The notes beneath the pieces were generated by a model. It was given only the letters and a program-made list of their open reading frames with translations, ran no database searches and was not told the origin of the DNA. Both the position numbers and the translations under genes were made by a program. 39,448 nt of DNA from Pseudomonadota bacterium (GTDB lineage: Bacteria > Pseudomonadota > Gammaproteobacteria > Burkholderiales > Burkholderiaceae_C): assembly GCA_018261815.1 (NCBI GenBank), contig JAGTRL010000005.1, positions 1-39,448 of the forward strand, in the 5' to 3' direction. This document shows positions 7,466 through 27,857 of this stretch, piece by piece (position 1 is the stretch's first letter; each line of letters starts with the position of its first letter).

Positions 7466-8673
7466 GCGGCCGCACGCACCACGCGCGCCTCGCGGATCGG
7501 CAGGTTGATCAGCGCGGCGCCCACCGCCAGCAGGATGTCCACGTACCAATACCAGTCGTAGCTGCCGGTGACTTCGAAGGCCTTGCCGCCCAGCCACACG
7601 CCGGCGAAGGCGCCCACCTGGTGCACCAGCATGACGATGCCGAACTGCGTGCCCATGTTGGCCGGGCCGAAGAACTTGGCCACCAGCCCCGCCGTGGGCG
7701 GCACGGTGGACAGGAAGGTCAGGCCCATCACCGCCGCGAACACCAGCACCACCAGCCCGGTCTTCGGCGCCAGCAGGAAAAGCAGCACCGCCACCGCACG
7801 CGTTGCATACAGAAGCGCCAGCAGCGAGCGGGAGCGCCAACGCCCCATGGCCCAGCCGATGCCCAGGCTGCCCATGATGTTGAACAGCCCCAGCAGCGCC
7901 AGCGACCAGGCGCCGAACTGCAGCGGCAGCCCGCAGGCCGCGATCACCCCCGGCAGGTGCGTGGCCAGGAAGGCGACGTGGAAGCCGCAGACGAAGAAGC
8001 CCGCCGCCAGCAGCAGGTAGTTGCGGTCGCGCAGCGCCGTGCGCATGGCCTGGCCGGCGCTCAGCTTCTGCGGCGCGGCCGGCGAGTGCGGCGCGGGTGC
8101 GCCCCTGAGGATGAAGGCCGCAGGCAGCGACAGCAGCACCACGATCGCCAGCACCTGCAGCGCGCTCGCCCAGCCGAAGGACAGCATCAGCATGCCGGCA
8201 ATGGGCGCGATCAGGAACTGGCCGAAGGAGCTGCCGGCATTGACCACGCCGAAGGCGATGCCGCGCCGCTCGGGCGCGATCAGCCGGGTGGCCGCGGGCA
8301 TCAGCACCGAAGGCCCTGCGAGCCCGGCGCCGCCGGCGGCCAGTACGCCCACCGCGAGGATCAGCCCCAGCGTGCTGCTCATGTACGGTGTGATGAAGGT
8401 GCCCAGCGCCACCATCAGCACGCCGAAGAAGAGCACCCGCCCGGCACCGATCTTGTCGGCAATGGCGCCGGCCACCGGCTGCGTCAGCCCCCACCACAGC
8501 TGGCCGAAGGCGAAGGCCAGGCTGATGCTGCCGATGCCCAGCCCCGTGGCGGTGTTCAGCGGGCTGACGAACAGCCCCATGCTCTGGCGCACGCCGGTGG
8601 TCAGCGCATAGGAGCCGGCCGCCGCCAGCAGCACCACCCACAGCGCGAAAAGACGCGTTGACGGGCTATTCAT
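7462..8673 (-). CDS. Major facilitator superfamily transporter
   Basis: 403 residues with about 12 predicted membrane helices. The loop between helices 2 and 3 reads ADKIGAGR, the usual MFS GxxxDrxGRr-like signature; the two six-helix halves are joined by a cytoplasmic loop with Pro/Ala (about residues 190-215). It resembles the oxalate/formate and monocarboxylate-type MFS branch, but the substrate cannot be assigned. The ATG at 8673 lies inside the last codons of marR (eight-base overlap), and its own stop overlaps the MATE start, so the three genes are probably translated in a coupled way and repressed by the MarR protein. Confidence 0.92.
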   Translation of the reverse strand: MNSPSTRLFALWVVLLAAAGSYALTTGVRQSMGLFVSPLNTATGLGIGSISLAFAFGQLWWGLTQPVAGAIADKIGAGRVLFFGVLMVALGTFITPYMSSTLGLILAVGVLAAGGAGLAGPSVLMPAATRLIAPERRGIAFGVVNAGSSFGQFLIAPIAGMLMLSFGWASALQVLAIVVLLSLPAAFILRGAPAPHSPAAPQKLSAGQAMRTALRDRNYLLLAAGFFVCGFHVAFLATHLPGVIAACGLPLQFGAWSLALLGLFNIMGSLGIGWAMGRWRSRSLLALLYATRAVAVLLFLLAPKTGLVVLVFAAVMGLTFLSTVPPTAGLVAKFFGPANMGTQFGIVMLVHQVGAFAGVWLGGKAFEVTGSYDWYWYVDILLAVGAALINLPIREARVVRAAA

Positions 8674-9124
8674 CCTCGGCCTCCGCTGGCACCGGGTCGA
8701 GCAGTTCGAGCGAATCGTCGACCAATGCATGCAGCGCGCGCACGCGCTCCACGCCGAGCAATTGATTCAGGCCCTCCTGCGCCGCCTTCCAGTGGCGCTG
8801 GGCCTCGGCACGCTTGTCGCGGCCGGCGTCGGTGATGTGCACCAGGCGGCTGCGGCCGTCGTCGCCGGCCGACATCTGCAGCCAGCCGGCCGCCAGCATG
8901 GGCTTGAGATTGCGCGTCAGCGTGGACGCGTCCATGGTCATGGACGCCGCCAGGTCACCCGGACGGATCGGGCCCAAGCGCAACACATGCGACAGCAGCG
9001 AGTACTGCGTGGTCTTCAACCCGGCCTTGCCAACCTCGGCGTCGTACAACTGCGAAACACGGCGCACCAACTGGCGCAACTTGAAGTTGGTGCAGCCCTG
9101 CGGCTTGGTTTCGACGTTGCCCAT
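8666..9124 (-). CDS. MarR family transcriptional regulator
   Basis: 152 residues. A winged helix-turn-helix regulator of the MarR family, whose members usually repress their own operon and neighbouring efflux genes until a small ligand binds. The DNA-binding part is around residues 50-95 (GPIRPGDLAASM, STLTRNLKPML) followed by the wing with DDGRSRLVHIT. The ATG at 9124 is preferred over the TTG one codon upstream. It leads the operon marR-MFS-MATE and is divergent from a thioesterase gene; a 16-base palindrome with flanking symmetric elements lies in the 50-base gap and is the likely operator. Confidence 0.93.
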   Translation of the reverse strand: MGNVETKPQGCTNFKLRQLVRRVSQLYDAEVGKAGLKTTQYSLLSHVLRLGPIRPGDLAASMTMDASTLTRNLKPMLAAGWLQMSAGDDGRSRLVHITDAGRDKRAEAQRHWKAAQEGLNQLLGVERVRALHALVDDSLELLDPVPAEAEDE

Positions 9125-9161
9125 CAAAATAATTGTACCTACAATTGTTGTAGTTGCAACT
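9117..9161. promoter_or_regulatory. Overlapping divergent promoters with MarR-type operator
   Basis: Rightward: TTGCCC (9117-9122), 17-base spacer, TACAAT (9140-9145) toward the thioesterase. Leftward: TTGCAA (complement of 9154-9159), 16-base spacer, TACAAT (complement of 9132-9137) toward marR. The two -10 boxes are the arms of a perfect inverted repeat AATTGTA-CC-TACAATT (9131-9146). A second perfect palindrome, AGTTGCAACT, covers 9152-9161. The leftward start would fall about one base before the marR ATG, so that message may be leaderless. The operator role is inferred. Confidence 0.6.
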
Positions 9162-9174
9162 GTAGAGACGACGG

Positions 9175-9720
9175 ATGAACGCTGAAGACACGAAAGCCGC
9201 CTGGATCGAGGAGCTCGACGCTGTGCGCCGCCGCGCGATGGCGGCCGGCGCGGAGCCGGGCGTGGCCAGCCCGCAGCAACTGCAGGGCAAGAGCGGCCTG
9301 CAGATCATGCAGGCCATGCTGGCCGGCGAGCTGCCCTTCCCGCACATCATGCAGACGCTGGACTATTCGCTGGTGCAGATCGACAAGGGCCGCGCGGTGT
9401 TCCAAGGCGTGCCGCAGCTGATGCACTACAACCCGCTGGGCAGCGTGCACGGCGGCTGGTATGCGACGCTGCTCGATTCGGCGCTGGGTTGCGCGGTGCA
9501 CACCATGCTGGAGCCCGGCCAGGGCTATACCACGGCCGAGCTGGGCATCCACGTCGTGCGCGCGGCGTCGATGAAGAGCGGCCCGCTGCGCGCCATCGGC
9601 CATGTGGTGCATGTCGGCCGCCAGCTGGCCACGGCGGAGGCGCGCGTCGTGGGCGCCGACGGCAAGCTCTATGCGCACGGCAGCACCACCTGTCTGGTGT
9701 TCCAGGCGCCGCCGCGCTGA
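9175..9720 (+). CDS. PaaI-type hotdog-fold acyl-CoA thioesterase
   Basis: 181 residues. A PaaI/YdiI-like thioesterase that would hydrolyse acyl- or aryl-CoA esters. The active-site helix motif reads VHGGWYATLLDSALG (His92, Gly93-94, Asp101), and the downstream strand TTAELGIHVVRAA is characteristic of the hotdog fold. About 50 N-terminal residues precede the core and are helical. It is divergent from marR and shares its palindromic operator, so it may be co-regulated with the efflux pumps, perhaps as part of a response to an aromatic acid (inference). Confidence 0.88.
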   Translation: MNAEDTKAAWIEELDAVRRRAMAAGAEPGVASPQQLQGKSGLQIMQAMLAGELPFPHIMQTLDYSLVQIDKGRAVFQGVPQLMHYNPLGSVHGGWYATLLDSALGCAVHTMLEPGQGYTTAELGIHVVRAASMKSGPLRAIGHVVHVGRQLATAEARVVGADGKLYAHGSTTCLVFQAPPR

Positions 9721-9757
9721 GACGCTACAGTCGGTGCCCGACCCGCAGGTGCCGACG

Positions 9758-10162
9758 ATGCATGCCCTGGCCGCCATCCACAGCTATCACGCCCACGTGT
9801 ACTACGACCCGGCGCGCACCCGCGGCGTGGCCGAAACGCTGCGCCAGCGTATTGGCGAGCGCTTCGGCGTGCAGCTGGGCCGCTGGCACGACGTGCCGGT
9901 GGGCCCGCACACCGCAGCGATGTACCAGGTCGCCTTCGACACCGAAGTCTTCGCCAGCCTTGTGCCCTGGCTGATGCTCAACCGCGAGGGTCTGGACGTG
10001 CTGGTGCACCCCAACACGCTGGCGCCGCGCGACGACCACCTTCTCCACGCGCTGTGGCTCGGCCAAAAGCTGGCGCTGAAGGAGGCGGTGCTCCCGCTGC
10101 GCTTCGGCGCCGACCAGGAATCGCCGATCGAACCCAACACCACGCCCACCCTCGCACCCTGA
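9758..10162 (+). CDS. DOPA 4,5-dioxygenase family protein
   Basis: 134 residues. It matches the small DOPA-dioxygenase-like family, compact extradiol-type proteins of about 110-130 residues. The N-terminal motif HSYHAHVYYDP and the central GPHTAAMYQV and VLVHPNT segments, rich in metal-ligand histidines, are typical. Fungal members cleave catechols such as DOPA; the bacterial substrate is not established. The ATG at 9758 is preceded by AGGTG. It lies between the thioesterase (37 bases upstream) and nudC (25 bases downstream), probably on one transcript. Confidence 0.85.
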   Translation: MHALAAIHSYHAHVYYDPARTRGVAETLRQRIGERFGVQLGRWHDVPVGPHTAAMYQVAFDTEVFASLVPWLMLNREGLDVLVHPNTLAPRDDHLLHALWLGQKLALKEAVLPLRFGADQESPIEPNTTPTLAP

Positions 10163-10187
10163 GCGGGCTTCAACCAGACTCCCGCCC

Positions 10188-10997
10188 ATGATCTTCGTCC
10201 CCGCCGTGCAACCGTTGGCCGCGGCCACGCCGCTGGCCTGGTGCTTTGCCTTCTTCGACGGCAAGCTGCTGCTGCCCGACGCCCGGGCCTTGCAGCCGCT
10301 GGCGGTTCAAGGCTTCGAACACCTGGCGCTTGCGCGCCACTACCTGGGCCGGCTGGACGAGGTCGATTGCTGGGCTCTGCATCTGAGCGAGGCGCCTGCC
10401 GGGTGGAAGGGCACCGCGCTGCGCGCGGCGATGCTGCAGTTTCCCGACGCGCTGATGGGCGTGGCCAGCCGCGCGGCCCAGGTGCTGGAATGGGACCGTG
10501 CGCACCGCTTCTGCGGCGTGTGCGGCACGCCCACCGAATTGCAGGCGCACGAACGCTCGCGCAAATGCCCGGCCTGCGGCCACAGCGCCTACCCGCGGCT
10601 GAGCCCTGCGATGATGGTGCTGATCTGGCGCGGTCGCGAGCTGCTGCTGGCACGCTCGCCGCACTACGCGCCAGGCATGTTCAGCGCACTGGCCGGCTTC
10701 GTCGAGACCGGCGAATCGCTGGAAGATTGCGTGCATCGAGAGGTGGCCGAGGAAGTGGGCGTGACCGTGAGCGGCCTGCGCTACTACGGCAGCCAGAGCT
10801 GGCCATTCCCGCACAGCCTGATGGTGGCCTACACCGCGCAATGGGCCGGTGGCGAGGTGATGCCGCAGGAAGACGAGATCGAAGCCGCCGGCTGGTTCGA
10901 CATCGACGCGCTGCCCGGCATCCCGCCGCGGTTTTCGATCGCCGGGCACCTGATCCGCGACAGCGTCGAACGACTGCGCAACGGCCTGGCACCTTGA
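10188..10997 (+). CDS. nudC: NAD+ diphosphatase / RNA deNADding Nudix hydrolase NudC
   Basis: 269 residues, close to the E. coli enzyme in length. NudC hydrolyses NAD(H) to nicotinamide mononucleotide and AMP and removes NAD caps from RNA. A four-cysteine zinc ribbon (Cys109, 112, 127, 130) precedes the Nudix box GX5EX7REVAEEVG (about 170-192). The NudC-specific SQSWPFPHS motif at 202-210 distinguishes it from other Nudix proteins. Its stop converges on that of a MarR gene 45 bases away, with no clear hairpin between them. Confidence 0.95.
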   Translation: MIFVPAVQPLAAATPLAWCFAFFDGKLLLPDARALQPLAVQGFEHLALARHYLGRLDEVDCWALHLSEAPAGWKGTALRAAMLQFPDALMGVASRAAQVLEWDRAHRFCGVCGTPTELQAHERSRKCPACGHSAYPRLSPAMMVLIWRGRELLLARSPHYAPGMFSALAGFVETGESLEDCVHREVAEEVGVTVSGLRYYGSQSWPFPHSLMVAYTAQWAGGEVMPQEDEIEAAGWFDIDALPGIPPRFSIAGHLIRDSVERLRNGLAP

Positions 10998-11042: not shown

Positions 11043-11564
11043 TCAGAGCTGCGCCAACGGCATGCCGGCGGCGCCCGATTCAGGGCGCAGCAGCGCGATC
11101 AGTAGTGCAAGGTCGGCTTCGAGCCGGGTCAGCGCCTCGGCGTCGAGCTGCGCGATGGCCGCCGGCAGCACGCCGCTGAACGGCCCCGGTGCACGCCGCA
11201 GCACCTCGTCGCCGGCAGGCAGCAGGCGCAGCTGCACGGCGCGGCGGTCCTCGCCCTTGCGTTCGGCCGTGAGCAAGCCCATCGCCACCAGGGCCCGCAC
11301 CAGGTTGCTGGCGGTCGTCTGCTGGATGTCCATGGCACGCGCCAGCGCGTTGACGCCGATGCCGGGCTGCAGCGCGACGACACTTAGCGCCCACAACTGC
11401 GCACCGCCGATGCCGGCGACCTTCTCGACCTGGCGGAAATGGGACTTCACGGCATTGAAGACCTGGCGAAACTGGCGCAGCACGCGTGCGGCCGAGTCCG
11501 GCATCGCAGCGGCAGCCGGCGGCGCCGATACGGAATCAGGCACGGTGGGTGTCGTCGAGTTCAT
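11043..11564 (-). CDS. MarR family transcriptional regulator
   Basis: 173 residues. The centre (about residues 55-115) is a MarR winged helix: GINALARAM-like helices, DIQQTTASNLVRALVAMGLL as recognition region and a wing with GEDRRAVQLRL. About 25 Pro/Ala-rich residues precede it. The start codon lies within the last codons of otsB (29-base overlap), so it is the third gene of the otsA-otsB-marR transcript and may regulate trehalose synthesis, although family members can also act elsewhere. No ligand can be predicted. Confidence 0.9.
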   Translation of the reverse strand: MNSTTPTVPDSVSAPPAAAAMPDSAARVLRQFRQVFNAVKSHFRQVEKVAGIGGAQLWALSVVALQPGIGVNALARAMDIQQTTASNLVRALVAMGLLTAERKGEDRRAVQLRLLPAGDEVLRRAPGPFSGVLPAAIAQLDAEALTRLEADLALLIALLRPESGAAGMPLAQL

Positions 11565-12306
11565 CGATCATGGTCTGCAAGGCCACGGCCATTTCGGCCG
11601 GGCTGTCGAGAAAGAAGCGCGCCCGTGAGTGCGGATCGTCGCGACCGATGCGCACCGTCAGCCAGTGCGGCGGCGCGGCGACGAACACCGGCTCGTCGTT
11701 GACATCGTCACCGGCGAAGAACGCACTGTCGCAACTGGCGCGCGCCACCAGCGAACGCACCGCCTCGGCCTTGTCGGGGGCGCCGGCGGCCACGACATTT
11801 TCGACCATCTTGCCGGAGAACAGGCTCAGTGCCGGATCGTCCGTCAGCTGCAGCGCATCGATCGCCGCGCGCGCGCGTTCGCGGTCCGGGGCCAGCCGGT
11901 AGTGCAGCGCGATCGACGCGCCCTTGTCCTCGACGAAGACACCGGCGGCGTCGATGGCGCCGCCGTGGGCCTCGATGCGCCCGCGCAGCGGGTCGAGGCG
12001 GCGCGTGAGGGCCTCGGCCGCCGCCGCATCAGTGACGTCCTCGGCCCCATGGCTGCCGACGACGAAGCGCGGCTCGAAGCCGAGCCGGCCGCGCAGGTCC
12101 GCGACGGCACGCCCGGTGACGATCGCCACCGGCAGCCGCCGCGCCAGCCGCTCAAGCTGCAAGGCCACGGCGCGCGGAATGCGCGCATCGCACGGCCGCG
12201 GCACGATCGGCGCCAGCGTGCCGTCGAAGTCGAAGGCCAGCAGCGGCCGCCGTCGCAGCAGCGCGGCCAGCGCTTCGCGCCCCGCCACCGAGAACAGATG
12301 CTTCAT
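11536..12306 (-). CDS. otsB: Trehalose-6-phosphate phosphatase
   Basis: 256 residues. A HAD-superfamily phosphatase that removes phosphate from trehalose 6-phosphate. The nucleophile motif FDFDGTLAPI (Asp26, Asp28) and the later GDDVNDEPVF metal-binding motif are intact, with VTGR and GSHGAE in between as in OtsB cap-domain enzymes. AGGAGG stands eight bases before the ATG at 12306; another ATG one codon earlier (12309) is possible. It follows otsA by about a dozen bases, and the two form the OtsAB pathway. Confidence 0.95.
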   Translation of the reverse strand: MKHLFSVAGREALAALLRRRPLLAFDFDGTLAPIVPRPCDARIPRAVALQLERLARRLPVAIVTGRAVADLRGRLGFEPRFVVGSHGAEDVTDAAAAEALTRRLDPLRGRIEAHGGAIDAAGVFVEDKGASIALHYRLAPDRERARAAIDALQLTDDPALSLFSGKMVENVVAAGAPDKAEAVRSLVARASCDSAFFAGDDVNDEPVFVAAPPHWLTVRIGRDDPHSRARFFLDSPAEMAVALQTMIDELDDTHRA

Positions 12307-12320
12307 CATGCAATCCTCCT

Positions 12321-14579
12321 TCACTCGGCCTGGTAGCGTCGCACGCGCGCCTCGATGCGCGAGCGCAGCCGCCAGCGCCCAGCGTCGGCCAGCATGCGCC
12401 CGGCCCAGCGGTAGACGTTGAACTCGCGCACCGTGCTGCGCAGGCTGGCCATGCGCTCGCGCTGCTCGGCCTCGGGCATCGTCGCCGCGCGCTGCAGCGC
12501 GTCCGCGGTCTCCTCCACGTGGTAGGGGTTGACGATCAGCGCCTCGTTCAGCTCGCGGGCTGCGCCTGCAAAACGGCTGAGCACGAGCACGCCGCGCAGG
12601 TCGTCGCGCACCGCGATGAACTCCTTGCACACCAGGTTCATGCCGTCGTGCAGGCTGGTGACGATGCAGATGTCGGCGGCTCGGAACAGCTCGGTCAGCG
12701 CATCGTGCTCGTGGTGCTGCGCCAGCAGCCGCACCGGCTCGTAGCCGGGGCGGCCGAAGCGCTGGTTGATGCGGTCGGCCAGGCGCTGCACGCGCTGCTG
12801 GAAGCTGCGGTACTCCTCGAGCGCGCTGCGCGTCGGCGCGGCGACCTGCACGAAGACGAATCGGCCAATCCATTCGGGGGACTTCTCGAGCAGCCGCTCG
12901 ACCGCGTGCATGCGCTCGATGATGCCCTTGGTGTAGTCGAAGCGGTCGACGCCGACGGCCAGGCAGACGTCGGCGGGCAGCCCGAGCCTTTCGATGACAC
13001 GGCGCCGGCATGCGTCGACCGGTGCCCATGCCGCAACCTCGGCGTCGCCGGGCCACTCGATCGAGATCGGATAGCTCTCGACCAGCGTTTCCTTCTGCTT
13101 GTACGAGATCGTCGAATGTTCGTGCTCGATGCGCGCCTCCAGGTACCGGTCCACCGTCTCGATGAAGTTCTTGCAGTGGTAGCGCGTGTGGAAGCCGAGG
13201 ATCGTGCTGCCGAGCATGCCGCGCAGGATCTCGCGCCGCCACGGGCAGATGCCGAAGGACTCGGGGTTCGGCCAGGGGATGTGCCAGAAGGTGAGGATCG
13301 TGGCCTGCGGCAGCTTCTCGCGCACCATCGCCGGCAACAGCGCGAAGTGATAGTCCTGCACCAGCACCACCGGGTCCTCGCCGCGCGCCTCGGCCACCAC
13401 CGCGTCGGCGAAGCGCTGGTTGACCTTGCGGTAGGCCTCCCAGTCGGATTCGCGGAACACCGGCCGCACGTGCGCGACGTGGCACAGCGGCCACATGCCT
13501 TCGTTGGCGAAGCCGTAGTAGTAGCCCTGCTCCTCCTCTTCGGTGAGCCAGATGCGGCGCAGCGAGTACTCCGGGTGCGCCGGCGGCACGCCGACGCGGT
13601 CGAAGGCGTCGACGACCTCGCGGTCGCCGCTGCCGCTGCCGTGCGCGATCCAGGTGCCGCTGCAAGCGCGCATCACCGGCTCGACCGCGGTGACCAAGCC
13701 GCTGGCCGGACGCTTGACGATGATGCCGCCGTCGCTGCGCTCGTGGATGTACGGCTCGCGGTTGGAGACGACGATCACCTGGTCGCCGCTGAGCTGCGTG
13801 CGCAGCAGCGAGCGCAGCCGCGCAGCGTTCCAGGTCGCGTCCGGCCCCTGGGCGCGGCGGTACTCGTCCTCGAGGTCGCGCAGCCGGGCGCGCAGTTCGG
13901 TCGCCAGCGGAGCCAGTTCGGGAGCCGGCAGCCAGGGCGTGAGGATGCCCTCGCCGCGCATCAGCGCGCGCGTGCCCTTGACCCAGCCGCGCCAGCTGAG
14001 CTGCGCCACCACCATCGTGATGAATGCGATCACCACACCGAGCGCGGTGATCAGCCCGATCAGGTAGCGGCGCGTGTCCTGACTGCGGCGGTCGATGAAG
14101 CTGAGGTCGTGAAGCAGGATCAAGCGACCCAGCAGCTGCGGCGATCCGGGCAGCATCCCCAGGACCGGATGCGATCCGACGTTCACCGTGCCGCCCGTGA
14201 GCTGCAGCCGTGGGTCGGCCTGCGCGGACAGCGTCACCGCCTCGGCGCAGCTCAATGCCGGCGGATACCCCGCAGTGCTCTGAAGCAAGCGGTTGTCGGG
14301 GCTGCACAGGCCGATCGCGAACAGCCGTTCGTCCTGGGTCGTGCGCTCGAACAGCGCCTTCAGGCGCGTGCTTCGGTCGGCCTGCAGCGCCTCGGCCACC
14401 GAATCGGACAATGCGTTGGCCACCAGCATGCCGCGGCTGTTCAAGTCGCGGCTGAACCAGCGCAAGGTCAATTGGTCGAGAAACGGCACCGACAGATAGG
14501 CCGCGGCGACCAGTGCCACCAACAGCGGCAGCAGGAAACGCAACTGCAGCCGCAGCGTCTTCAGCACGGCCACGGCCAA
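12321..14579 (-). CDS. otsA: Membrane-anchored trehalose-6-phosphate synthase with sensor-like N-terminus
   Basis: 752 residues against ~470 for the E. coli enzyme. The C-terminal GT20 domain (about 267-735) makes trehalose 6-phosphate from UDP-glucose and glucose 6-phosphate. It keeps the [11 protein letters not shown] segment, [10 protein letters not shown] (Arg546, Lys551) and [11 protein letters not shown] (Asp645, Glu653). The usual HDYH motif is QDYH (408-411). Ahead of it are one membrane helix (14-34), a ~135-residue extracytoplasmic segment, a second helix (172-194) and a HAMP-like linker, the layout of a membrane sensor. The frame begins at TTG 14579 with GTG codons just after, and no good ribosome-binding site is seen, so the start is uncertain. 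A related GT20 activity such as glucosylglycerol-phosphate synthase is not excluded, but the otsB neighbour favours OtsA. Confidence 0.9.
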
Positions 14580-14610: not shown

Positions 14611-14639
14611 GGGACAAGGCTTGCATGGCTAATTATATT
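14611..14639 (+). promoter_or_regulatory. Candidate promoter for the mscS gene
   Basis: GGGACA (14611-14616), a 17-base spacer and TATATT (14634-14639) point toward the mechanosensitive channel gene. The -10 overlaps that of the leftward otsA promoter, so the two promoters would compete for polymerase or share regulators. An alternative -10, TACAAT, lies at 14650-14655 without a good -35. Confidence 0.4.
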
Positions 14640-14660
14640 TGCTCAAATATACAATACCAA
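14632..14660 (-). promoter_or_regulatory. Sigma70-type promoter for otsA-otsB-marR
   Basis: On the minus strand TTGGTA (complement of 14655-14660) is followed after 17 bases by a perfect TATAAT (complement of 14632-14637). It sits in an AT-rich island unlike its surroundings, about 50 bases before the otsA start codon. This is the best core promoter I see in the window. Confidence 0.6.
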
Positions 14661-14711
14661 CATCCAAGCACTTTCGCTTCGACCCGGCCTGCCGCCGGGC
14701 GTTCAGCAACG

Positions 14712-14745
14712 GGCCCGGCATCCAGCATGCCTGCGCGGCCGGGCC
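14712..14745 (+). promoter_or_regulatory. Hairpin in the mscS leader
   Basis: GGCCCGGC (14712-14719) pairs perfectly with GCCGGGCC (14738-14745) around an 18-base loop, just eight bases upstream of the AAGGAGG ribosome-binding site (14754-14760). It could influence translation or stability of the leader, but no alternative pairing that hides the ribosome site was found by eye. Confidence 0.4.
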
Positions 14746-14770
14746 ATCACCTCAAGGAGGACCCCACCCC

Positions 14771-15628
14771 ATGATCGACACCACCTGGATCGCTGGCCTG
14801 CTCGGAGACCGCGAGAGCTGGGGCAGCGTCGCCATGACCGCGTTGCGCATCGCCGCCATCGTCATCGCCGCCTGGCTCTCGATCGTCGTCGGGCAGAACG
14901 CCGTGCGCAGGCTGCGCGTGCGCATCGCCAACCGGCTCGACGACCGCGAAGCGGTGCAGCGCGCCGAGACGCTCGGCCGCGTGGTGCGCTACCTGATCGC
15001 GGTCGTGGTCTCGGCCATCGCACTGATGCTGGTGCTCGGCGAAGTCGGCGTCAGCGTCGCGCCGATCCTCGGTGCCGCCGGGGTGGCCGGCCTGGCCATC
15101 GGCTTCGGTGCGCAAAGCCTCGTCAAGGACTACTTCACCGGCTTCTTCCTGCTGCTCGAGAACCAGATCCGCCAGGGCGACGTCGTCAAGCTGGGCGAAC
15201 ACTCCGGTCTGGTCGAAGAGGTGACGCTGCGCTACGTGCGGCTGCGCGACTACGACGGCAACGTGCACTTCGTGCCCAACGGCCAGATCAGCAGCGTCGT
15301 CAACATGGCGCGCGGCTTCGCGCAGGCGGTGATCGACGTCAGCGTCGCCTACGCCACCGACATCGACAACGCAATGAAGGTGATGCGCGAGGTTGCCGCC
15401 GAACTGCGCAGCGACCCGGCCTACAGCGGGCGCATCCTCGACGACATCGACATCGCCGGCGTCGACAAGTGGGCCGATTCGGCAGTGATCATCCGCTCGC
15501 GCTTCCGCGTCAAGCCGCTCGAACAGTGGGCGGTGCGGCGCGAGTACCTGCGCAGGCTCAAGGCCGCCTTCGACCGCTGCGAGATCGAAATTCCCTTCCC
15601 GCAGATGAAGCTGCACCTGCCGGCGTGA
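14771..15628 (+). CDS. MscS-type mechanosensitive ion channel
   Basis: 285 residues, as in E. coli MscS (286). It opens under membrane tension to release solutes on osmotic downshock. Three hydrophobic helices lie in the first ~125 residues; the pore-lining third one has the Gly/Ala-rich GAAGVAGLAIGFGAQSL pattern, followed by KDYFTGFF and LLENQIRQGD at the start of the beta domain. PNGQISSVVN is also typical. AAGGAGG ten bases before the ATG fixes the start; the frame continues upstream but that part is non-coding leader. The gene is divergent from otsA, which fits a shared osmotic role. Confidence 0.93.
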   Translation: MIDTTWIAGLLGDRESWGSVAMTALRIAAIVIAAWLSIVVGQNAVRRLRVRIANRLDDREAVQRAETLGRVVRYLIAVVVSAIALMLVLGEVGVSVAPILGAAGVAGLAIGFGAQSLVKDYFTGFFLLLENQIRQGDVVKLGEHSGLVEEVTLRYVRLRDYDGNVHFVPNGQISSVVNMARGFAQAVIDVSVAYATDIDNAMKVMREVAAELRSDPAYSGRILDDIDIAGVDKWADSAVIIRSRFRVKPLEQWAVRREYLRRLKAAFDRCEIEIPFPQMKLHLPA

Positions 15629-15633
15629 AAATT

Positions 15634-15665
15634 GGCGGCGGCGCTCACCACGGGCTGCCGCCGCC
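15634..15665 (-). terminator. Intrinsic terminator of the trehalose/glucan operon
   Basis: Read on the minus strand, GGCGGCGGC (complement of 15657-15665) pairs with GCCGCCGCC (complement of 15634-15642), a nine-pair GC stem with a 14-base loop, followed by AATTTT. The TGA stop codon of the last operon gene lies in the loop. On the plus strand it also lies just after the mscS stop but lacks a T-tract there. Confidence 0.7.
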
Positions 15666-16847
15666 GTCCAGAGCGCGCCGCGCGAGCAGGAAGGTCGCCG
15701 CGTTCCAACTCTGCCCGGCCATGCCGCGCGGCTCGAGCGTGCGGCCATGGAACCACTCGGTGAAGCGCCAGCCGCGCTGCGCGTTGGCCTCGGCCAGCGC
15801 CTGCAGCGCCTGTGCCGCCTGATCGCACAGCCCGAGCCGGGCGAGCATCAGCACCCAGAAGCCACCGACGAAGGGCCACAGCCCGCCGTTGTGGTACTGG
15901 TGCACCAGGTTCTGTCGGTGGCGCCCCATGTACGGCCGCCACAAGGGATGCGCCGGCGTCAGCGGATGCAGCGTGACACGAATCGGCCAGGGCCGGTCGG
16001 CGCCTGCCGTGGCGATGGTGTGCGCGATGCGGTGGCCCGTCGACTCCGGCGCCAGGCCGCACAGCACGGCCAGCAGATTGCCGAAGACGTCCCCCTCGTT
16101 GCCGGCGAAGGCAAAGTTGACGAAGCTCAGGTACAGGCCCGAGTCGGTGCGGCCACGGCGCGCGTAATGGCGCAGCAGCCGCGCGCGGTGGTATTCGGGC
16201 AGGTCGTGCTGGTACGGGTTGAACAGGTGGTTGAAGTGATGGTGCGTCGCGTCGATGGCCTCGAGGCCGTAGCGCCGCTTGACGTCGTGCCACAGCGCGT
16301 TGCTGTAGAGCACGTAGCCCGAGCGCGGCATGATGTCGGCCCAGTCGCTGGCCTCGTTCTGCTGCAGCAGGCGGAAGTGCGGATGCTCCTGCGCCTGCAG
16401 CCAGGCAATGGCGCGGCGCACCGCCGGAGCCCACCGGCGCTGCGCGACGCAGCCGGCGCGCCGCAGATGGTCGACGGCGATCAGCCACCACAGCGTCGCG
16501 TCGATGCAGCCCAGGTACCAGAAGTCGGCGTCCTGCCCTTCGGGATCGACGTACTTCGGAATCTGGCCGTTCGACGCCTGGCACGCCGCCAATGCGTCCA
16601 GGCTGGCGACCGCGCCGCGCTCCAGCACTGCGTCGCCGCTGTCGCACATCGCCAGCACGCAGATCGCCGCATCGCGGCCGAAGATGCGCGTGTAGCGGCG
16701 CGCGTCGGCAGCGGCGCTGCGCGTCGCCGCCAGGATGCCACTGGACGTGAGGTTGGCGCGCAGCAGCGCCAGCGACGCCGCACTGCAGACGTCGATCAGT
16801 GGCGCATCATCGGTCGGCGGTTGTGGCAAGGGGGCGGTCGACGGCAT
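15645..16847 (-). CDS. Six-hairpin (alpha/alpha barrel) glycosidase, GH100 or amylo-1,6-glucosidase-like
   Basis: 400 residues; the last gene of the operon. Segments such as YTRIFGRDAAICVLAM, GQIPKYVDP, WYLGCIDATLWWL, QYHNGGLWPFVGGFW and AGQSWNAATFLLA resemble (alpha/alpha)6 glycosidases: bacterial amylo-alpha-1,6-glucosidase-like proteins and the GH100 alkaline invertases, whose NGGxWP motif is very similar. A role in trimming a glucan or cleaving a glucoside is likely, but the substrate is not clear from sequence. No signal peptide, so cytoplasmic. The ATG at 16847 was chosen because the conserved part begins soon after it; it overlaps treY by 41 bases. A terminator hairpin encloses its stop codon. 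Confidence 0.75.
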   Translation of the reverse strand: MPSTAPLPQPPTDDAPLIDVCSAASLALLRANLTSSGILAATRSAAADARRYTRIFGRDAAICVLAMCDSGDAVLERGAVASLDALAACQASNGQIPKYVDPEGQDADFWYLGCIDATLWWLIAVDHLRRAGCVAQRRWAPAVRRAIAWLQAQEHPHFRLLQQNEASDWADIMPRSGYVLYSNALWHDVKRRYGLEAIDATHHHFNHLFNPYQHDLPEYHRARLLRHYARRGRTDSGLYLSFVNFAFAGNEGDVFGNLLAVLCGLAPESTGHRIAHTIATAGADRPWPIRVTLHPLTPAHPLWRPYMGRHRQNLVHQYHNGGLWPFVGGFWVLMLARLGLCDQAAQALQALAEANAQRGWRFTEWFHGRTLEPRGMAGQSWNAATFLLARRALDGGGSPW

Positions 16848-19785
16848 CGGCGGCGGGCGGCACACCGTACAGCGCCGCGACTGGCCATTCTCGCAGCACC
16901 TCGCTGAGCAGCAGCACGCCATCCCGCACGGCATGCTTGCGCATCGCGATGCGGTCTTCCAGCCAGGCCGTTGAAGATGTTCTGTCGTCGGGCCAGACGA
17001 TGGCGGTGTCGCCCCAGCAGTCGCCGACCGGCGCCGCCCCGACAACAGGCCGCAGTGTCGCCGCCAGCCGCGAGGCAATCACCACCAGCCAGCTCGCGCC
17101 ATCGCGCCGGGCGAAGGCCACGACGTGCTGCGCCGCGCTGCCGCGCACCGCGAGCGGCAGGTATTCGGCGCGACGCAGCATCGCCTCGGCATCGCGGCGC
17201 AACTGCAGCGCGCGCCACGTCACCCAGAACTTCGCCCGCCCGTCGACTGCGCCGGTGAGCCACTGCCCCAGCGCGACGGAACGTGCCGGTGCGTCGGCCA
17301 GCGCGGCGAGCGCCTGCGCCTCGTCGAGCAGCGCACCGCGGCGTTGGAAATCCACCGCACGGCGGTTGTCGGGGTCGACCAACGACAGCTCGATCGCCTC
17401 GTGCCCCTGATAGATGTCGGGAACGCCGGGCGACAGGCATTTCAGCAGCGCCATCGTCAGGCCGTTGAGCGCGCCGAACCAGGCCAGCGTCGCCACGTTC
17501 GCCTGCAGGTCAGGCAGGAACAGGTTGCTGTCGCGCCGCTGCAGCAACGCCTGCACGAAGGACGACAGCGCCGCCTCGTGGCCGGCGTGGGGATTGATCC
17601 AGCTGGTCACCACCTTGGCCTCGCGCACCGACTTCAGCATCACCTGTTCGATGCGCGACGCGTAGTCGGCCAGCGCCGCATCGTCGATGCCGCCGCACGG
17701 CAGGCTGCCGACCAGCAGCTGGTACAGCAGGTACTCGTCGTTGCGCGACGGTGCATCGCGGCCATCGACGGTGCGCTTGTGGCGGCGGTTCAGCCGCATC
17801 CAGCGCCGCACCGCCAGGCGCCACGCCGCCGGCATCTCGCTGATCACGTCGATGCGGCAGCGCACGTCCTCCGAGCGCTTGGCGTCGTGCGTCGTCGTGC
17901 ACAGCATCGTGCCCGGCCAATGCAGCGCGCGGTCGCGGGTGGCCGCATGGAAGGCCGATACCGACAGGCCGAACATCTCCGGGTCGCCGCCCACATCGTT
18001 CAGCGACACCAGCCGGTGGTGCCGGTACAGCGCCGTGTCCTCGATGCCCTTGGCCGCCACCGGCGCGGTGTACTGCTGCAAGCGACGCGTGAAGGCCAGG
18101 CAGCGCTCGCGCGCGCCGGGCGCGGCACCGGGCAGCGGGCGACCGAGCAGCACGCGCTTCAGGAAGTCGAACAGGCTGGTGTCGGCCCCGAGCGTGCGCC
18201 GTCGCGCCAGGCCCACGGCCCAGTCGACGAAGCGCCGGTCCTGGGCGCTGGGCTCGTCGACGATGTAGCTGCGGTACACCGGAAAGGCAGCCACCAGTTC
18301 GACCAGCGCGCGCCTCAGCACGCTGAAGGTGAAGTCGCGTGTGCGCCGGTCCTCGCGCGCCAGGCGCAGCAGCGAGTTCGACAACACGCCCAGCTCTCCC
18401 GCCAGCGGGCCTGCCATCACGATGCGCCTGCACAGCCAGCTCAGCGCCTCGAACTCCTGGGCCTCGTCGTGCACGGCCACGCGCCAGGCGCGATCCAGCC
18501 GCGCGCGGGCACGGTGATCGACGAGCAGCGCATTGACGACGTTGGCGAAGCGGTAGCCGGTGGTGCCATGCAGGGCCCAGTCGCGCGGCAGCTGCTCGTG
18601 CGGCGCGAGGATCTTCTCGGCGACCACGTAGAGCGGCCAGACCGCACGGCTGCCGGCGTCGCTGCCGCCCGGCTCGGCGCTGCCACGCAGCTGCGCATAG
18701 CGGGACTGCAGGCGGCGGAAGTAGGCCGCCGGGTCGGCCAGTCCGTCGGGATGGTCGATGCGCAGGCCGTCGATCGCCCCGTCGGCGGCCAACTGCAGGC
18801 TCAGCCGGTGCGTCGCCTCGAACACCTCCTCGCGTTCCTGGCGCAGCGCGGCGAGCTCGTTGACGTCGAAGAAGCGACGGTAGTTGATCTCGTCGCCGGC
18901 CACGCGCCAGTGCGCCAGACGGTAGGGCTGGGCATCGATCAGCGCGTCCAGCGCGTCGAAACTCGCGCGCTGGCCGACGCGGCCGTTCAGCTCGACGCGA
19001 AGCGATTCGATGCACTGGCGCAGCGGGGCCGACAGCGACACCAGCTCGGCCAGGCGCGAGCGCAGCGCCGGCAGCTCGTCGCGGCGCCTGGCGCGTGCTG
19101 CCACGCTGGCCGCATCGTGCGTCGGCAGCTGCGACAAGGCTGTCGCCAGCGTCTGCACCGCCGCACGGTGCACGTCGTCCCCCGGCAATCGCCGCATCGC
19201 GCGCATCAGCAGCGGGCCGAACGATGCCGGGTCGATCGGCAGGCGGTGCTCGAAGTAGTCGATGTCGAGACGGCCGCGGGTGGCATCGAAGCTCAGGCGC
19301 AGCTCGCCGCGCTCGAGCACGATGCCGTACTGGTCACCGAGGATCGGCAGCAGCACCTTGCCGCGCAGCGCCGGGTCGGGCACGGCCCAGTCGATGTCGA
19401 AGTGGTCGGCGTAGGCTGAAGCCTGGCCGCTTTCGAGTACGTCCAACCACCAGGCGTTGTCGTTGCCGAGCACGCCCATGTGGTTGGGCACGATGTCGAC
19501 CAGCAGGCCCATGCCGCGCGCATGCAGCTGCTCGACCAGCCGGTCGAAGTCGGCGCGCGTGCCCAGCTCCGGGTTCAGCGCTCCATGGTCGACGACGTCG
19601 TAGCCGTGCAGGCTGCCGGGGCGTGCGCGCAGCAGCGGCGACACGTACAGGTGGCTGATGCCCAGCGCGTCGAGGTACGGCAGCAGCGCGGCCGCCTGGG
19701 CGAAGCCGAAGCCGGCGTGCAGCTGCAGGCGGTAGGTGGCACGCGGCACCCGCGCCGCACGCGCCGGCTCGACGGTTGTGTTCAT
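16807..19785 (-). CDS. treY: Maltooligosyl trehalose synthase
   Basis: 992 residues. TreY (a GH13 enzyme) converts the reducing-end alpha-1,4 bond of a malto-oligosaccharide to an alpha,alpha-1,1 bond. The N-terminal ATYRLQLHAGFGF start, SHLYVSPLLRARPGSLHGYDVVD and IVPNHMGV are diagnostic. The catalytic region shows GLRIDHPDGLADP (nucleophile Asp) and VVAEKILAPHE (acid Glu), with TTHDAKRSEDVR further on. The family is about 700-950 residues long, so this one is at the long end. The ATG at 19785 overlaps the treZ stop as ATGA. Its product is the substrate of the preceding TreZ. Confidence 0.97.
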   Translation of the reverse strand: MNTTVEPARAARVPRATYRLQLHAGFGFAQAAALLPYLDALGISHLYVSPLLRARPGSLHGYDVVDHGALNPELGTRADFDRLVEQLHARGMGLLVDIVPNHMGVLGNDNAWWLDVLESGQASAYADHFDIDWAVPDPALRGKVLLPILGDQYGIVLERGELRLSFDATRGRLDIDYFEHRLPIDPASFGPLLMRAMRRLPGDDVHRAAVQTLATALSQLPTHDAASVAARARRRDELPALRSRLAELVSLSAPLRQCIESLRVELNGRVGQRASFDALDALIDAQPYRLAHWRVAGDEINYRRFFDVNELAALRQEREEVFEATHRLSLQLAADGAIDGLRIDHPDGLADPAAYFRRLQSRYAQLRGSAEPGGSDAGSRAVWPLYVVAEKILAPHEQLPRDWALHGTTGYRFANVVNALLVDHRARARLDRAWRVAVHDEAQEFEALSWLCRRIVMAGPLAGELGVLSNSLLRLAREDRRTRDFTFSVLRRALVELVAAFPVYRSYIVDEPSAQDRRFVDWAVGLARRRTLGADTSLFDFLKRVLLGRPLPGAAPGARERCLAFTRRLQQYTAPVAAKGIEDTALYRHHRLVSLNDVGGDPEMFGLSVSAFHAATRDRALHWPGTMLCTTTHDAKRSEDVRCRIDVISEMPAAWRLAVRRWMRLNRRHKRTVDGRDAPSRNDEYLLYQLLVGSLPCGGIDDAALADYASRIEQVMLKSVREAKVVTSWINPHAGHEAALSSFVQALLQRRDSNLFLPDLQANVATLAWFGALNGLTMALLKCLSPGVPDIYQGHEAIELSLVDPDNRRAVDFQRRGALLDEAQALAALADAPARSVALGQWLTGAVDGRAKFWVTWRALQLRRDAEAMLRRAEYLPLAVRGSAAQHVVAFARRDGASWLVVIASRLAATLRPVVGAAPVGDCWGDTAIVWPDDRTSSTAWLEDRIAMRKHAVRDGVLLLSEVLREWPVAALYGVPPAADAVDRPLATTADR

Positions 19786-21616
19786 CCTGGCTGCCGCGAG
19801 ACGATCACCGACCAAGGCGGCAGGCCGCTTGCAGCGTCGTGCGTGCGGTACACCACATGTCCCGGCACCTGCCCGGCCAACGCCGAAGGCCCCGATGCAT
19901 CGGCCAGCTGCGCCAGCAGGTGCCAGCGATGACCCCCGCCCAGCGGCCAGTTGAGCTGCAGGGTGCCCGGCGACGGCTCGGCCCAGGTGCCGCTGCCTGC
20001 CGCGGCCAGATGCGGCATCAGCTCGGCATGGCGCAGCCGCAGCAGCCGCGTGGTCAGCGCCAGCCAAGCGGCATGCGGTGCGCGCCGCCGTTCGCGCCGA
20101 TCGAGCCGGCTGCGGCGAAAGGTGTCTTGCGCATTCGGGTCGGGGATCGCGGCACGCGCTTGCGCATCGGCAAAGCGGGCGAAGCGGCCGAACTCGTTGC
20201 GCCGGCCTTCGGTGACGTCACGAGCCAGATCGCCTTCGAAGTCACAGAAATACATGAACGGCGTACGGGCGCCCCACTCCTCGCCCATGAACAGCAATGG
20301 CGGCGACGGCGACAGCAGCAGGCAGGCCACCAGCGCGCGCAGCGCGGCCTCGCGTCCGCAGGCCGCCGCGAGCATGCCGATGCGCTCGCCCTGCGCGCGG
20401 TTGCCGATCTGGTCGTGCGTCTGCAGCGCATTGACGAAGGCCAGTGGCGGCAGCTGCGTCGATGGCGTACCGCGCGGGCCGCCGCCATAGACAGAGAACT
20501 CGCCCTGGTACGAAAAGCCCTCGGCCAGCGCGCGCCCGAGGTGGCGCAGCGGTGCATCGGCATAGTCGGCGTAGTAGCCGTCGTGCTCGCCGGTGGCCAG
20601 CACGTGCATCGCGTGGTGGGCATCGTCGTTCCATTGCGCGTCGGCCAGGCGCGCACGGCCCGCGCCGTCGCGCGCCAGACGCTCCGCGTCGTTGGCATGG
20701 TTCTCCACGATCACATGCACGTGGCGCGAATCGCCGACCACGCGCCGCACACGCTGCGCCAGCTCGTCGGCGAAGTGCAGCGCAGACCGGTCGTGCATCG
20801 CATGCACGGCATCGATGCGCAGTCCGTCGAGGTGGAACTCCTCTATCCAGTACAGCGCGTTGTGGATGAAGAAGTCGCGCACCGTGCCGCGCTGTGGCCC
20901 GTCGAAGGCGATCGCCGCGCCCCATGGCGTGTTCACCGCCGGGTCGAAGAAGGCGCCGCCGGCATAGGCATGCAGGTAGTTGCCGTCGGGGCCGAAGTGG
21001 TTGTAGACGACGTCGAGCAGCACCATCAGTCCGCGCGCATGCGCGGCGGCGACGAGCTGCTTCAGGTCGTCGGGGCTGCCATAGCTCGCCTCGGGTGCGT
21101 ACAGCAGCACGCCGTCGTAGCCCCAGCCGCGCCGGCCCGGGAAGTCGGCCACCGGCATCAGCTCGATGGCGGTGACACCGAGCGCGACCAGCTCGTCCAG
21201 GCGTTCGATGGCCGCGCGGAAGCTGCCCTGGCGTGTGAAACAGCCGATGTGCAACTCGTAGATCACGGCCTCGTGCCAGGGCCTGCCGCGCCAGGCGCCG
21301 TCAGGCCAGTCGAATGCGGCCGGATCGACGAGCTGGCTCGGGCGGTGCACGTCGTCGGGGTTGCATCGCGACGCGGGGTCGGGCACCACCAGGCCGCCGT
21401 CGATGCGGTAGGCATAGCGCAGCCCCGGCTGCGCGTCTTCGAGCCGAAGCTCGAACCAGCCGCCGCCAAGCGCCGGCATCGCGTCGACGCGCCCGGCCTG
21501 GCGGCCTGCACCCGGCCGCAGCAGTTCGACCCGCCCGGCCCCCGGCGCCCAGAGGCGGAAGCGCGCCCCACCCCCCGGCAGCAGCTGCGCACCGAAGGGC
21601 ATGTCGTGCGCGCGCT

Positions 21617-21620
<4 letters not shown>
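19782..21620 (-). CDS. treZ: Malto-oligosyltrehalose trehalohydrolase
   Basis: 612 residues. TreZ releases free trehalose from maltooligosyl trehalose made by TreY. It has an N-terminal CBM48-like beta domain (about 1-100, [11 protein letters not shown]), then the GH13 barrel: [50 protein letters not shown] (nucleophile Asp near 269), VIVENHAND (Glu near 304) and [16 protein letters not shown], a signature of the TreZ subfamily. The ATG at 21620 overlaps the glgX stop as ATGA; longer starts upstream lie within glgX. Confidence 0.97.
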
Positions 21621-23755
<2,135 letters not shown>

Positions 23756-23783
23756 CGCGCCGCCAGCGCTGTCGGCATCTGCT

Positions 23784-24475
23784 TCAGCGCGGCCCAGGCC
23801 CGGGGCCGTCGCGGTCGCGCGGGAACCAGCGTTCGATCAGTGCGGCGGCGCGGTCCCTGCCGCCGATGCCGAAGGCCAGCGCCAGGGCGACCACCACGCC
23901 GCCGAGCAGGATCAGGAAGGTCTGCTGGATCAGGCCGCCGCCGACGTCGAGGTGGTCGATGGCCAGCAGCACGACGAAGACCATCACGCCGTACTGCATC
24001 AGCCGGCCCAGCAGCTCGCCGTCGGCGATGTCGGCGCCGCGGCAGTAGGTCTGTACGCTGCGGCCGGCAAAGCGCGCGAAGTAGCTGCCGAAGACCACCA
24101 CCAGCAGTGCGACCAGAAGCTTGGGCACGAACAGCAGCACGCGCCCCAGCAGATCGGTCACCTGGTCGAGGCCGAGGCTGTTGGACGCGATGATCAGCGA
24201 CGCCAGGATCACCAGCAGGTAGGCGATCGCGCCGAACAGATCGGTGGTGTCCTTCTCGGTGCCGCCTTGCTGCAGGAAGCTGTCGATGCCGGCGCGCTCG
24301 GTGAGCACATGGAAGTTCAACGCGCGCAGCGCCTTGACGACCGCCAGGCGCGCGCCCTTGGCGAACAGCCAGCCCAGCAGCAGCACGATCAGCGCCGTGC
24401 CCAGCCGCGGCAGGAACACACCGACCTGGTGCAGCAGTGCGCGCAGCGAATCCACGACCATGTTCAGCTCTTGCA

Positions 24476-24476
<1 letters not shown>
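23784..24476 (-). CDS. Small MscS-like membrane protein inside the operon
   Basis: 230 residues with four or five hydrophobic segments (about residues 20-40, 82-100, 115-142, 160-180 and 190-208). The [21 protein letters not shown] segment and the [20 protein letters not shown] repeat fit the conserved helix repeat found in membrane proteins related to mechanosensitive channels; the soluble beta domain of MscS is absent. It may be a channel or accessory membrane protein. Its ATG shares a base with the treS stop (TGATG), so it is translationally coupled to treS. Why it sits between carbohydrate enzymes is unknown; osmotic release of trehalose is one guess. Confidence 0.75.
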
Positions 24477-27838
<3,362 letters not shown>

Positions 27839-27857
27839 GCGTGGGGCCCCGCTGGCA

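Follow-up and report, generated by a model that had tools for sequence, protein, structure and literature searches.

The gene at positions 12321 to 14579 on the reverse strand of the window (the whole 39,448-nucleotide stretch of DNA that was analysed) encodes a protein of 752 residues in which a membrane sensor-type module is fused to a trehalose-6-phosphate synthase (TPS). It begins with TTG, and the GTG codons 3 and 5 are alternative starts. On the same strand, otsB for trehalose-phosphatase (11536-12336; PF02358 and TIGR00685 above cut-off) overlaps the downstream end of the TPS gene by 16 bases, and the gene for a MarR-family regulator (11043-11564, reverse strand; PF12802 and PF01047) in turn overlaps the otsB reading frame. 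A second MarR-family gene, at 8666-9127, is separate from the one in the co-occurrence count given below. Divergent from the TPS gene, the forward strand carries a gene for an MscS-type mechanosensitive channel (14639-15628; PF00924, PF21082 and PF21088) with a likelier start at the ATG of position 14771, and the order leading away from TPS is MscS, a GH gene, TreY, TreZ, GlgX, a protein with an MscS-type helix, a TreS-maltokinase, GlgE and GlgB. The alpha-glucan/trehalose cluster at 15645-31801 thus places, together with TPS/OtsB, three trehalose routes and the GlgE route in one place. Inside this cluster, the protein with the conserved MscS-type membrane helix (PF05552; 23784-24965) represents a second mechanosensitive-type gene.

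The earlier note on this DNA had claimed that a helix, a periplasmic segment, a second helix and a HAMP-like linker precede a GT20 output domain, and both parts of this claim were borne out, the layout by hydropathy and by an AlphaFold2 model of residues 1-262, and the output domain by the matches described in the next paragraph. Two membrane segments were evident from hydropathy, with 19-residue window maxima at starts 16 and 173. All parts lie on the reverse strand. The first membrane helix (residues 8-36 approximately; 14472-14558) was assigned from hydropathy and from the model helix 2-66. It is followed by a predicted periplasmic Cache/PDC-like domain with invariant Cys92 and Cys111 (residues 37-165 approximately; 14085-14471), delineated from the model, structure comparison and alignments, and by the second membrane helix (residues 166-195 approximately; 13995-14084), placed by hydropathy and the model. 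The HAMP-like linker (residues 196-248 approximately; 13836-13994) was drawn from the model and profile comparison, the connector helix with the invariant Trp250 (13782-13835) from the alignment, and the GT20 domain occupies residues 267-732 (12384-13781).

PF00982 matched the fusion protein over residues 267-732 with an E-value of 2.9e-125 and 419.1 bits against a cut-off of 32.5, and this was the only GT20 match in the source genome assembly (4.35 Mb, 85% complete). We compared the domain with E. coli OtsA at 14 positions listed as its active site (9, 22, 40, 76, 85, 130, 154, 262, 267, 300, 344, 361, 365 and 369), and 13 of them were identical when an offset of +1 was allowed for the initiator Met. 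The sole mismatch was position 40, which is Gly in E. coli OtsA and Ala in the fusion; the list expects Trp there, so this entry of it is unreliable. The Arg300 position was retained in the fusion GT20 and is Ala in two other GT20 proteins of relatives. Judged by these residues, the domain is a predicted trehalose-6-phosphate synthase in which nearly all of the OtsA positions examined are retained. The fusion protein fell below the NCBIfam equivalog cut-offs for OtsA (TIGR02400; 432.3 versus 564.85 bits), bifunctional TPS/phosphatase and glucosylglycerol-phosphate synthase, and we therefore treat it as a GT20 of its own branch and do not file it as an OtsA equivalog. In the full-length model, the first GT20 strand starts at codon 268, which is a GTG.

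The domain search of residues 1-265 suggested in the earlier note revealed no Pfam or NCBIfam model above cut-off. Matches to EccD and Adeno_E3B were weak, below cut-off and hydrophobic and were rejected, and the one match of a PDB profile search (E 0.71) was taken as chance. The Pfam Cache models did not match the window protein, and one of 28 relatives matched dCache_3 with an E-value of 0.29; we therefore call the domain Cache-like and assign it to no Cache family. The fold class emerged from structure comparison. The AlphaFold2 model, built with 41 sequences, showed a mean pLDDT of 89.6 and a pTM of 0.69; it contained two long helices (residues 2-66 and 160-207), shorter helices at 71-83 and 111-118, a helix at 223-248 after a gap, and strands at 86-92, 98-101, 124-127, 130-143 and 146-158. 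Foldseek ranked a WalK model first, followed by the sensor domains of CitA, LuxQ, WalK and DctB, and the E-value was below 0.001 for the first match only, which was an integrative WalK model with long helices. Superposition with VIA-align 2 gave, for WalK, a Z-score of 12.2 and an rmsd of 3.6 over 184 residues (model residues 2-196), part of which score reflects the long helices, for which VIA-align itself cautions that Z-scores below about 13 can be common. The corresponding values were a Z-score of 10.1 and an rmsd of 2.6 over 110 residues for CitA and 9.8 and 3.4 over 132 residues for DctB, both of which are crystal structures of the domain alone, and VIA-align gave a Z-score of 8.9 for LuxQ. 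The best 50 VIA-align rows were mostly sensor domains of kinases and chemoreceptors, which we take to be of the Cache/PDC type. According to the model, the N-module contains a single Cache/PDC-like fold between two predicted membrane helices, so that the sensor-type character proposed for this part stood, with the Cache/PDC assignment reached through structure comparison.

Cys92 and Cys111 are the only cysteines within residues 1-262, and they were invariant in all 41 rows of alignment A2 and all 28 rows of alignment A4, which have 23 rows in common. Further invariant residues of the N-module were W41, D45, R49, R85 and D158. These residues and the model fit a folded periplasmic domain with a predicted disulfide, which contradicts the idea, also considered in the earlier note, that the periplasmic region is unstructured and unconserved. 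The two cysteines also raise the possibility of a redox or envelope-stress sensor, in which the disulfide state of Cys92/Cys111 would set TPS activity. Their invariance in every row of both alignments would agree with such a switch, but a structural disulfide accounts equally well for it, and we consider this special case of sensory control quite improbable.

The linker was compared with HAMP domains in several ways. PF00672 matched neither the window protein nor any of the 28 rows of A4 at E-values up to 1. A profile of residues 176-250 was set against 11 of the 12 HAMP matches of the same genome (L125, with its HAMP under the cut-off, was left out) and scored 22.6 over 38 columns without the -glob option, with a P-value of 2.5e-4 and a probability of 42.7%, while another run scored 17.4 with a probability of only 4.9%. 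None of 150 column shuffles reached 22.6 (best, 16.8), and the register was that expected after the last membrane helix. When the HAMP profile was moved along the protein, the four stretches over residues 166-285 were the best of 46 (18.7-19.5; next, 13.0). Comparison of the linker with one single HAMP sequence was negative, and the full-length model was least confident here (pLDDT 40-52 at residues 191-250). The profile signal is thus weak but specific; we use the term HAMP-like rather than HAMP for this segment, and the HAMP identity claimed for it earlier is weakly supported.

To establish how often the module and the synthase occur together, we sampled the source genome together with 60 relatives, and among these 61 genomes PF00982 gave 28 matches in 25. 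At 19 of these 28 loci, each from a different genome and the source among them, the module stood in frame upstream of GT20; one of the 19, L012, runs into a contig end and shows the module partly. No module was visible at the remaining nine loci, which represent GT20 of other types or fragments. When public genomes were scanned with alignment A1 of the module, at least 551 of at least 588 stretches were confirmed, of which the best 80 were kept; module and GT20 were both present in all 80, and alignments A2 and A3 drew on 40 of them. One of the two scan patterns lay at the GT20 start, so the scan favours fusions. A profile of residues 1-262, without GT20, served as the bias-free test and matched four of 299 Pseudomonadota genomes, the window being one of the four; all four matches ran into GT20. 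In the class to which G170 belongs, G170 itself was the sole match among 289 genomes. These numbers (4/299 in the phylum and 1/289 in the class) indicated that the module is rare overall. No second copy was found in its own genome, and plasmid records gave no match to the module.

The organisms named for the best 80 scan loci included Burkholderiales genera, Lysobacter and metagenome-assembled genomes (MAGs) labelled Geobacter, Syntrophus and Bacteroidetes, where single MAG labels may be wrong. Named strains with the fusion belonged to Ideonella, Rubrivivax, Ramlibacter, Roseateles and Mitsuaria, and 13 of the 80 loci bore the label Ramlibacter, including L057 from a MAG labelled R. tataouinensis. 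Three pairs of loci with the same assembly prefixes (L042/L069, L043/L085 and L051/L086) represent two fusion TPS genes per genome. As many genomes carry the fusion, chance and contamination were rejected as its origin. The same data bear on a start-codon artefact, in which a soluble TPS would begin near residue 265, as the earlier note had allowed. The GTG at codon 268 offers such a start, and no clear ribosome site precedes the TTG. Against this, the module was in frame in the 19 sampled genomes and in all 80 kept scan loci, many of them with ATG at the place corresponding to the fusion start, a promoter-like site and a palindrome lie upstream of the module, and a start at codon 268 would coincide with the beginning of the first GT20 strand. 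The in-frame conservation, the single copy in its own genome and the promoter-like site upstream of the module exclude a late start as far as sequence can, and we rejected this extremely improbable reading.

The neighbourhood of the fusion gene was compared across the best 80 of at least 551 scan loci, 78 of which have more than 1 kb of flanking DNA downstream and 68 more than 2.5 kb upstream. Downstream on the same strand, otsB was found within 1.2 kb in 59 and within 81 bases in 56 of the 80. A relative of the MarR gene lay somewhere in 23 of the 80 loci, 22 of them at 45% identity or more. MscS (at least 50% identity) was divergently upstream in 10 of the 80, at 350 bases or less in five, at 1.9-2.1 kb in four and at 6.4 kb in one. 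Ten reading frames near TPS were inspected in seven loci (L033, L051, L058, L076, L088, L103 and L104), and the sole trehalose gene among them was a GH15 trehalase-like frame of L104. Directly after TPS in L076, a Lysobacter locus with no matched otsB, the frame at 9277-10521 encodes a putative Na+/H+ antiporter (PF07399), which likewise hints at osmotic or ionic surroundings for the synthase.

Trehalose is a compatible solute, and the divergent MscS gene in the window, with its counterparts in the ten loci, brings in an osmosensor proper, a special case of sensory control in which periplasmic osmolality or membrane tension would directly drive trehalose synthesis. The link to osmotic stress comes from gene context. 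However, most loci had no MscS gene found, even though 68 of the 80 have more than 2.5 kb upstream, and osmotic sensing carries no sequence signature. The Cache fold is mostly used for small-molecule sensing, usually by binding the molecule, so the modelled fold points to a ligand rather than an osmotic signal. The yeast osmosensor Sln1 does have a Cache domain, according to the text of Upadhyay et al. 2016 (PMC4822843). On balance, we regard an osmosensor in the strict sense as unlikely.

Between the divergent TPS and MscS genes, we found the perfect, operator-like palindrome TATATTTGAGCAAATATA at 14634-14651, and no other match with three or fewer mismatches occurred in the genome assembly. 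The palindrome is overlapped by a sigma-70-like promoter (TTGGTA-17-TATAAT; 14632-14660, reverse strand), a consensus match only, which reads into the TPS gene. For the palindrome counts, 74 of the best 80 loci were used, six having too little upstream DNA. With the pattern taken from the window after the relatives had been viewed and then counted in the same relatives, the palindrome occurred at up to three mismatches within 300 bases upstream of the TPS start in 18 of 75 stretches (the window and the 74 loci), compared with four of 3100 other 300-base windows of these loci and one of 1500 shuffles. A MarR gene was present in 10 of the 17 loci with the site and in 10 of the 57 without it (Fisher P 0.0016), and at up to five mismatches in 16 of 30 versus 4 of 44 (P 4e-5), where both tests cover the 74 loci with unequal flanks and with relatedness uncorrected. 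The palindrome is thus a candidate and probable MarR operator. Its co-occurrence with MarR genes and its position over the promoter suggest that TPS transcription is probably repressed by the neighbouring MarR, separately from any control through the sensor.

Conservation along the protein was uneven. Mean identity to the window was 51% for the periplasmic part, the least conserved region, 66% for the linker and 78% for GT20. In many close relatives (L004, L008-L011, L013, L014, L016-L020 and others), a Pro/Ala-rich stretch of some 20-60 residues is inserted where the chain turns between the final two periplasmic strands (window residues 140-148 approximately), and the window protein is without it. 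Region-wise dN/dS values were 0.54-1.03 for the periplasmic part in eight pairs, which gave no support for strong constraint, and 0.18-0.64 for GT20; they were discarded, because third positions are about 90-94% GC, which distorts dS, and the pairs had been picked by low dS.

Relatives of the synthase domain were then examined for the presence of the module. A GT20-domain query found a match in 81 of the 299 Pseudomonadota genomes. Identity was 51% or more for 13 matches, of which four carry the module, eight belong to a single genus from a class other than that of the window, and one, L139 (51%), is unclear, its frame being open to the locus edge. The eight (L130-L138 except L133) share 59-61% GT20 identity with the window protein; inspected by eye, their shorter N-terminal part seems to comprise one membrane helix and then a W-S-P-E/D connector comparable to that of the fusion, without a periplasmic domain. 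A tree was calculated from 66 GT20 domains, comprising the window, 30 of the best 80 scan loci and other GT20 loci from the genome searches, with 50 scan loci and L153 left out and a midpoint root used for drawing only. The module rows and the single-helix rows formed one branch of 44 rows (support 91/97), within which the eight single-helix rows were nested beside three module rows (97/86), and the three states need two changes. The remaining rows lay outside this branch: 17 grouped with E. coli OtsA and four with L002 and L003, and L139 joined the 44-row branch (100/99) on a long branch of its own. The simplest history would be that the module was gained once and that its periplasmic part was lost once while a membrane helix was kept.

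These relatives introduce the main rival explanation, a membrane anchor only, in which the N-module would serve to tether the synthase to the inner membrane, in the vicinity of OtsB, a channel or an exporter, and the domain in the periplasm would have a structural or dimerising role, without signalling. As the eight keep an apparent membrane helix without a periplasmic domain, anchoring alone must suffice in that genus, and the fastest divergence of the protein is in the periplasmic region. However, a confidently folded sensor-type domain with invariant residues exceeds the needs of an anchor; this domain is kept across at least two classes of the phylum and in the MAGs labelled Geobacter and Syntrophus, and the HAMP-like linker is conserved too. 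We therefore consider anchoring alone rather unlikely, although less so than the osmotic or redox versions of sensing. The sensor-less relatives offer a natural control or variant of the fusion.

Given the computed fusion, fold class, conservation, active-site residues and gene context, we favour, with some confidence, the explanation that the protein is a membrane-embedded one-component sensory TPS in which an extracytoplasmic signal sets the activity of the enzyme. That an outside signal acts on the synthase is what we infer from the architecture, as are the topology, the dimer, the transfer of the signal and the direction of its effect. Residues 1-195 would comprise two membrane helices with a single periplasmic Cache-like domain between them, residues 196-266 the HAMP-like signalling linker and connector helix, and residues 267-732 the TPS on the cytoplasmic side. 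In a dimer, a periplasmic change, either ligand binding or the state of the envelope, may travel along the second membrane helix and the linker to alter synthase activity, and the OtsB phosphatase, whose gene follows immediately, would receive the product. Transcription would be under separate control, probably by the neighbouring MarR acting at the palindrome over the promoter. A broader proposal, to which we give slightly less than even weight, is that such fusions might constitute a widespread, undescribed class of one-component receptors. Their extracytoplasmic Cache-type sensor would act directly as the gate of the committed enzyme in compatible-solute synthesis, and the cell would produce trehalose upon an outside signal with no kinase, second messenger or fresh transcription involved.

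The outputs that Cache sensors are known to control belong to signalling, for instance kinases, chemoreceptors and cyclases. With a metabolic enzyme attached to a Cache-type sensor, the path from an external cue to a protective metabolite would, if this reading is true, be very short. Since the fusion occurs in named betaproteobacterial strains, coupling between an envelope signal and trehalose could be tested directly with one purified protein. We found no description of this architecture in the titles and abstract openings of open-access papers on TPS with membrane or sensor parts, subscription papers being outside this scope. Compared with OtsA-type synthases such as E. coli OtsA and fungal Tps1, the fusion shares the fold family, most of the probed catalytic and substrate positions and the adjacent otsB, and its GT20 domain is 32% identical to E. 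coli OtsA. To our knowledge, the known OtsA-type synthases are soluble and have no membrane module. Ramlibacter, a genus carrying the fusion, includes R. tataouinensis with the TPS Rta_36500, whose gene lies beside a phosphatase and a GH15 trehalase (PMC3164672); in the portions of that article consulted, no membrane part is mentioned and the word HAMP is absent.

The closest published statement, in passages of Upadhyay et al. 2016 (PMC4822843), associates Cache domains with outputs in signal transduction. The receptor classes named there are chemoreceptors, c-di-GMP enzymes, nucleotide cyclases, Ser/Thr kinases, transcription factors and ion channels. The sensor class is shared with the fusion, whereas a glycosyltransferase is absent among these outputs, and the string "glycosyl" occurs once in the main text of PMC4822843, in a reference title. 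The Cache-HAMP sensor histidine kinases WalK, CitA, DctB and LuxQ share with the fusion the predicted pattern of two membrane helices, one extracytoplasmic Cache/PDC-like domain and a linker that in the fusion is weakly HAMP-like. Set beside these kinases, the fusion differs in an N-module sequence that the Pfam Cache and HAMP models do not recognise, and in its output, which is a biosynthetic enzyme where theirs is a kinase.
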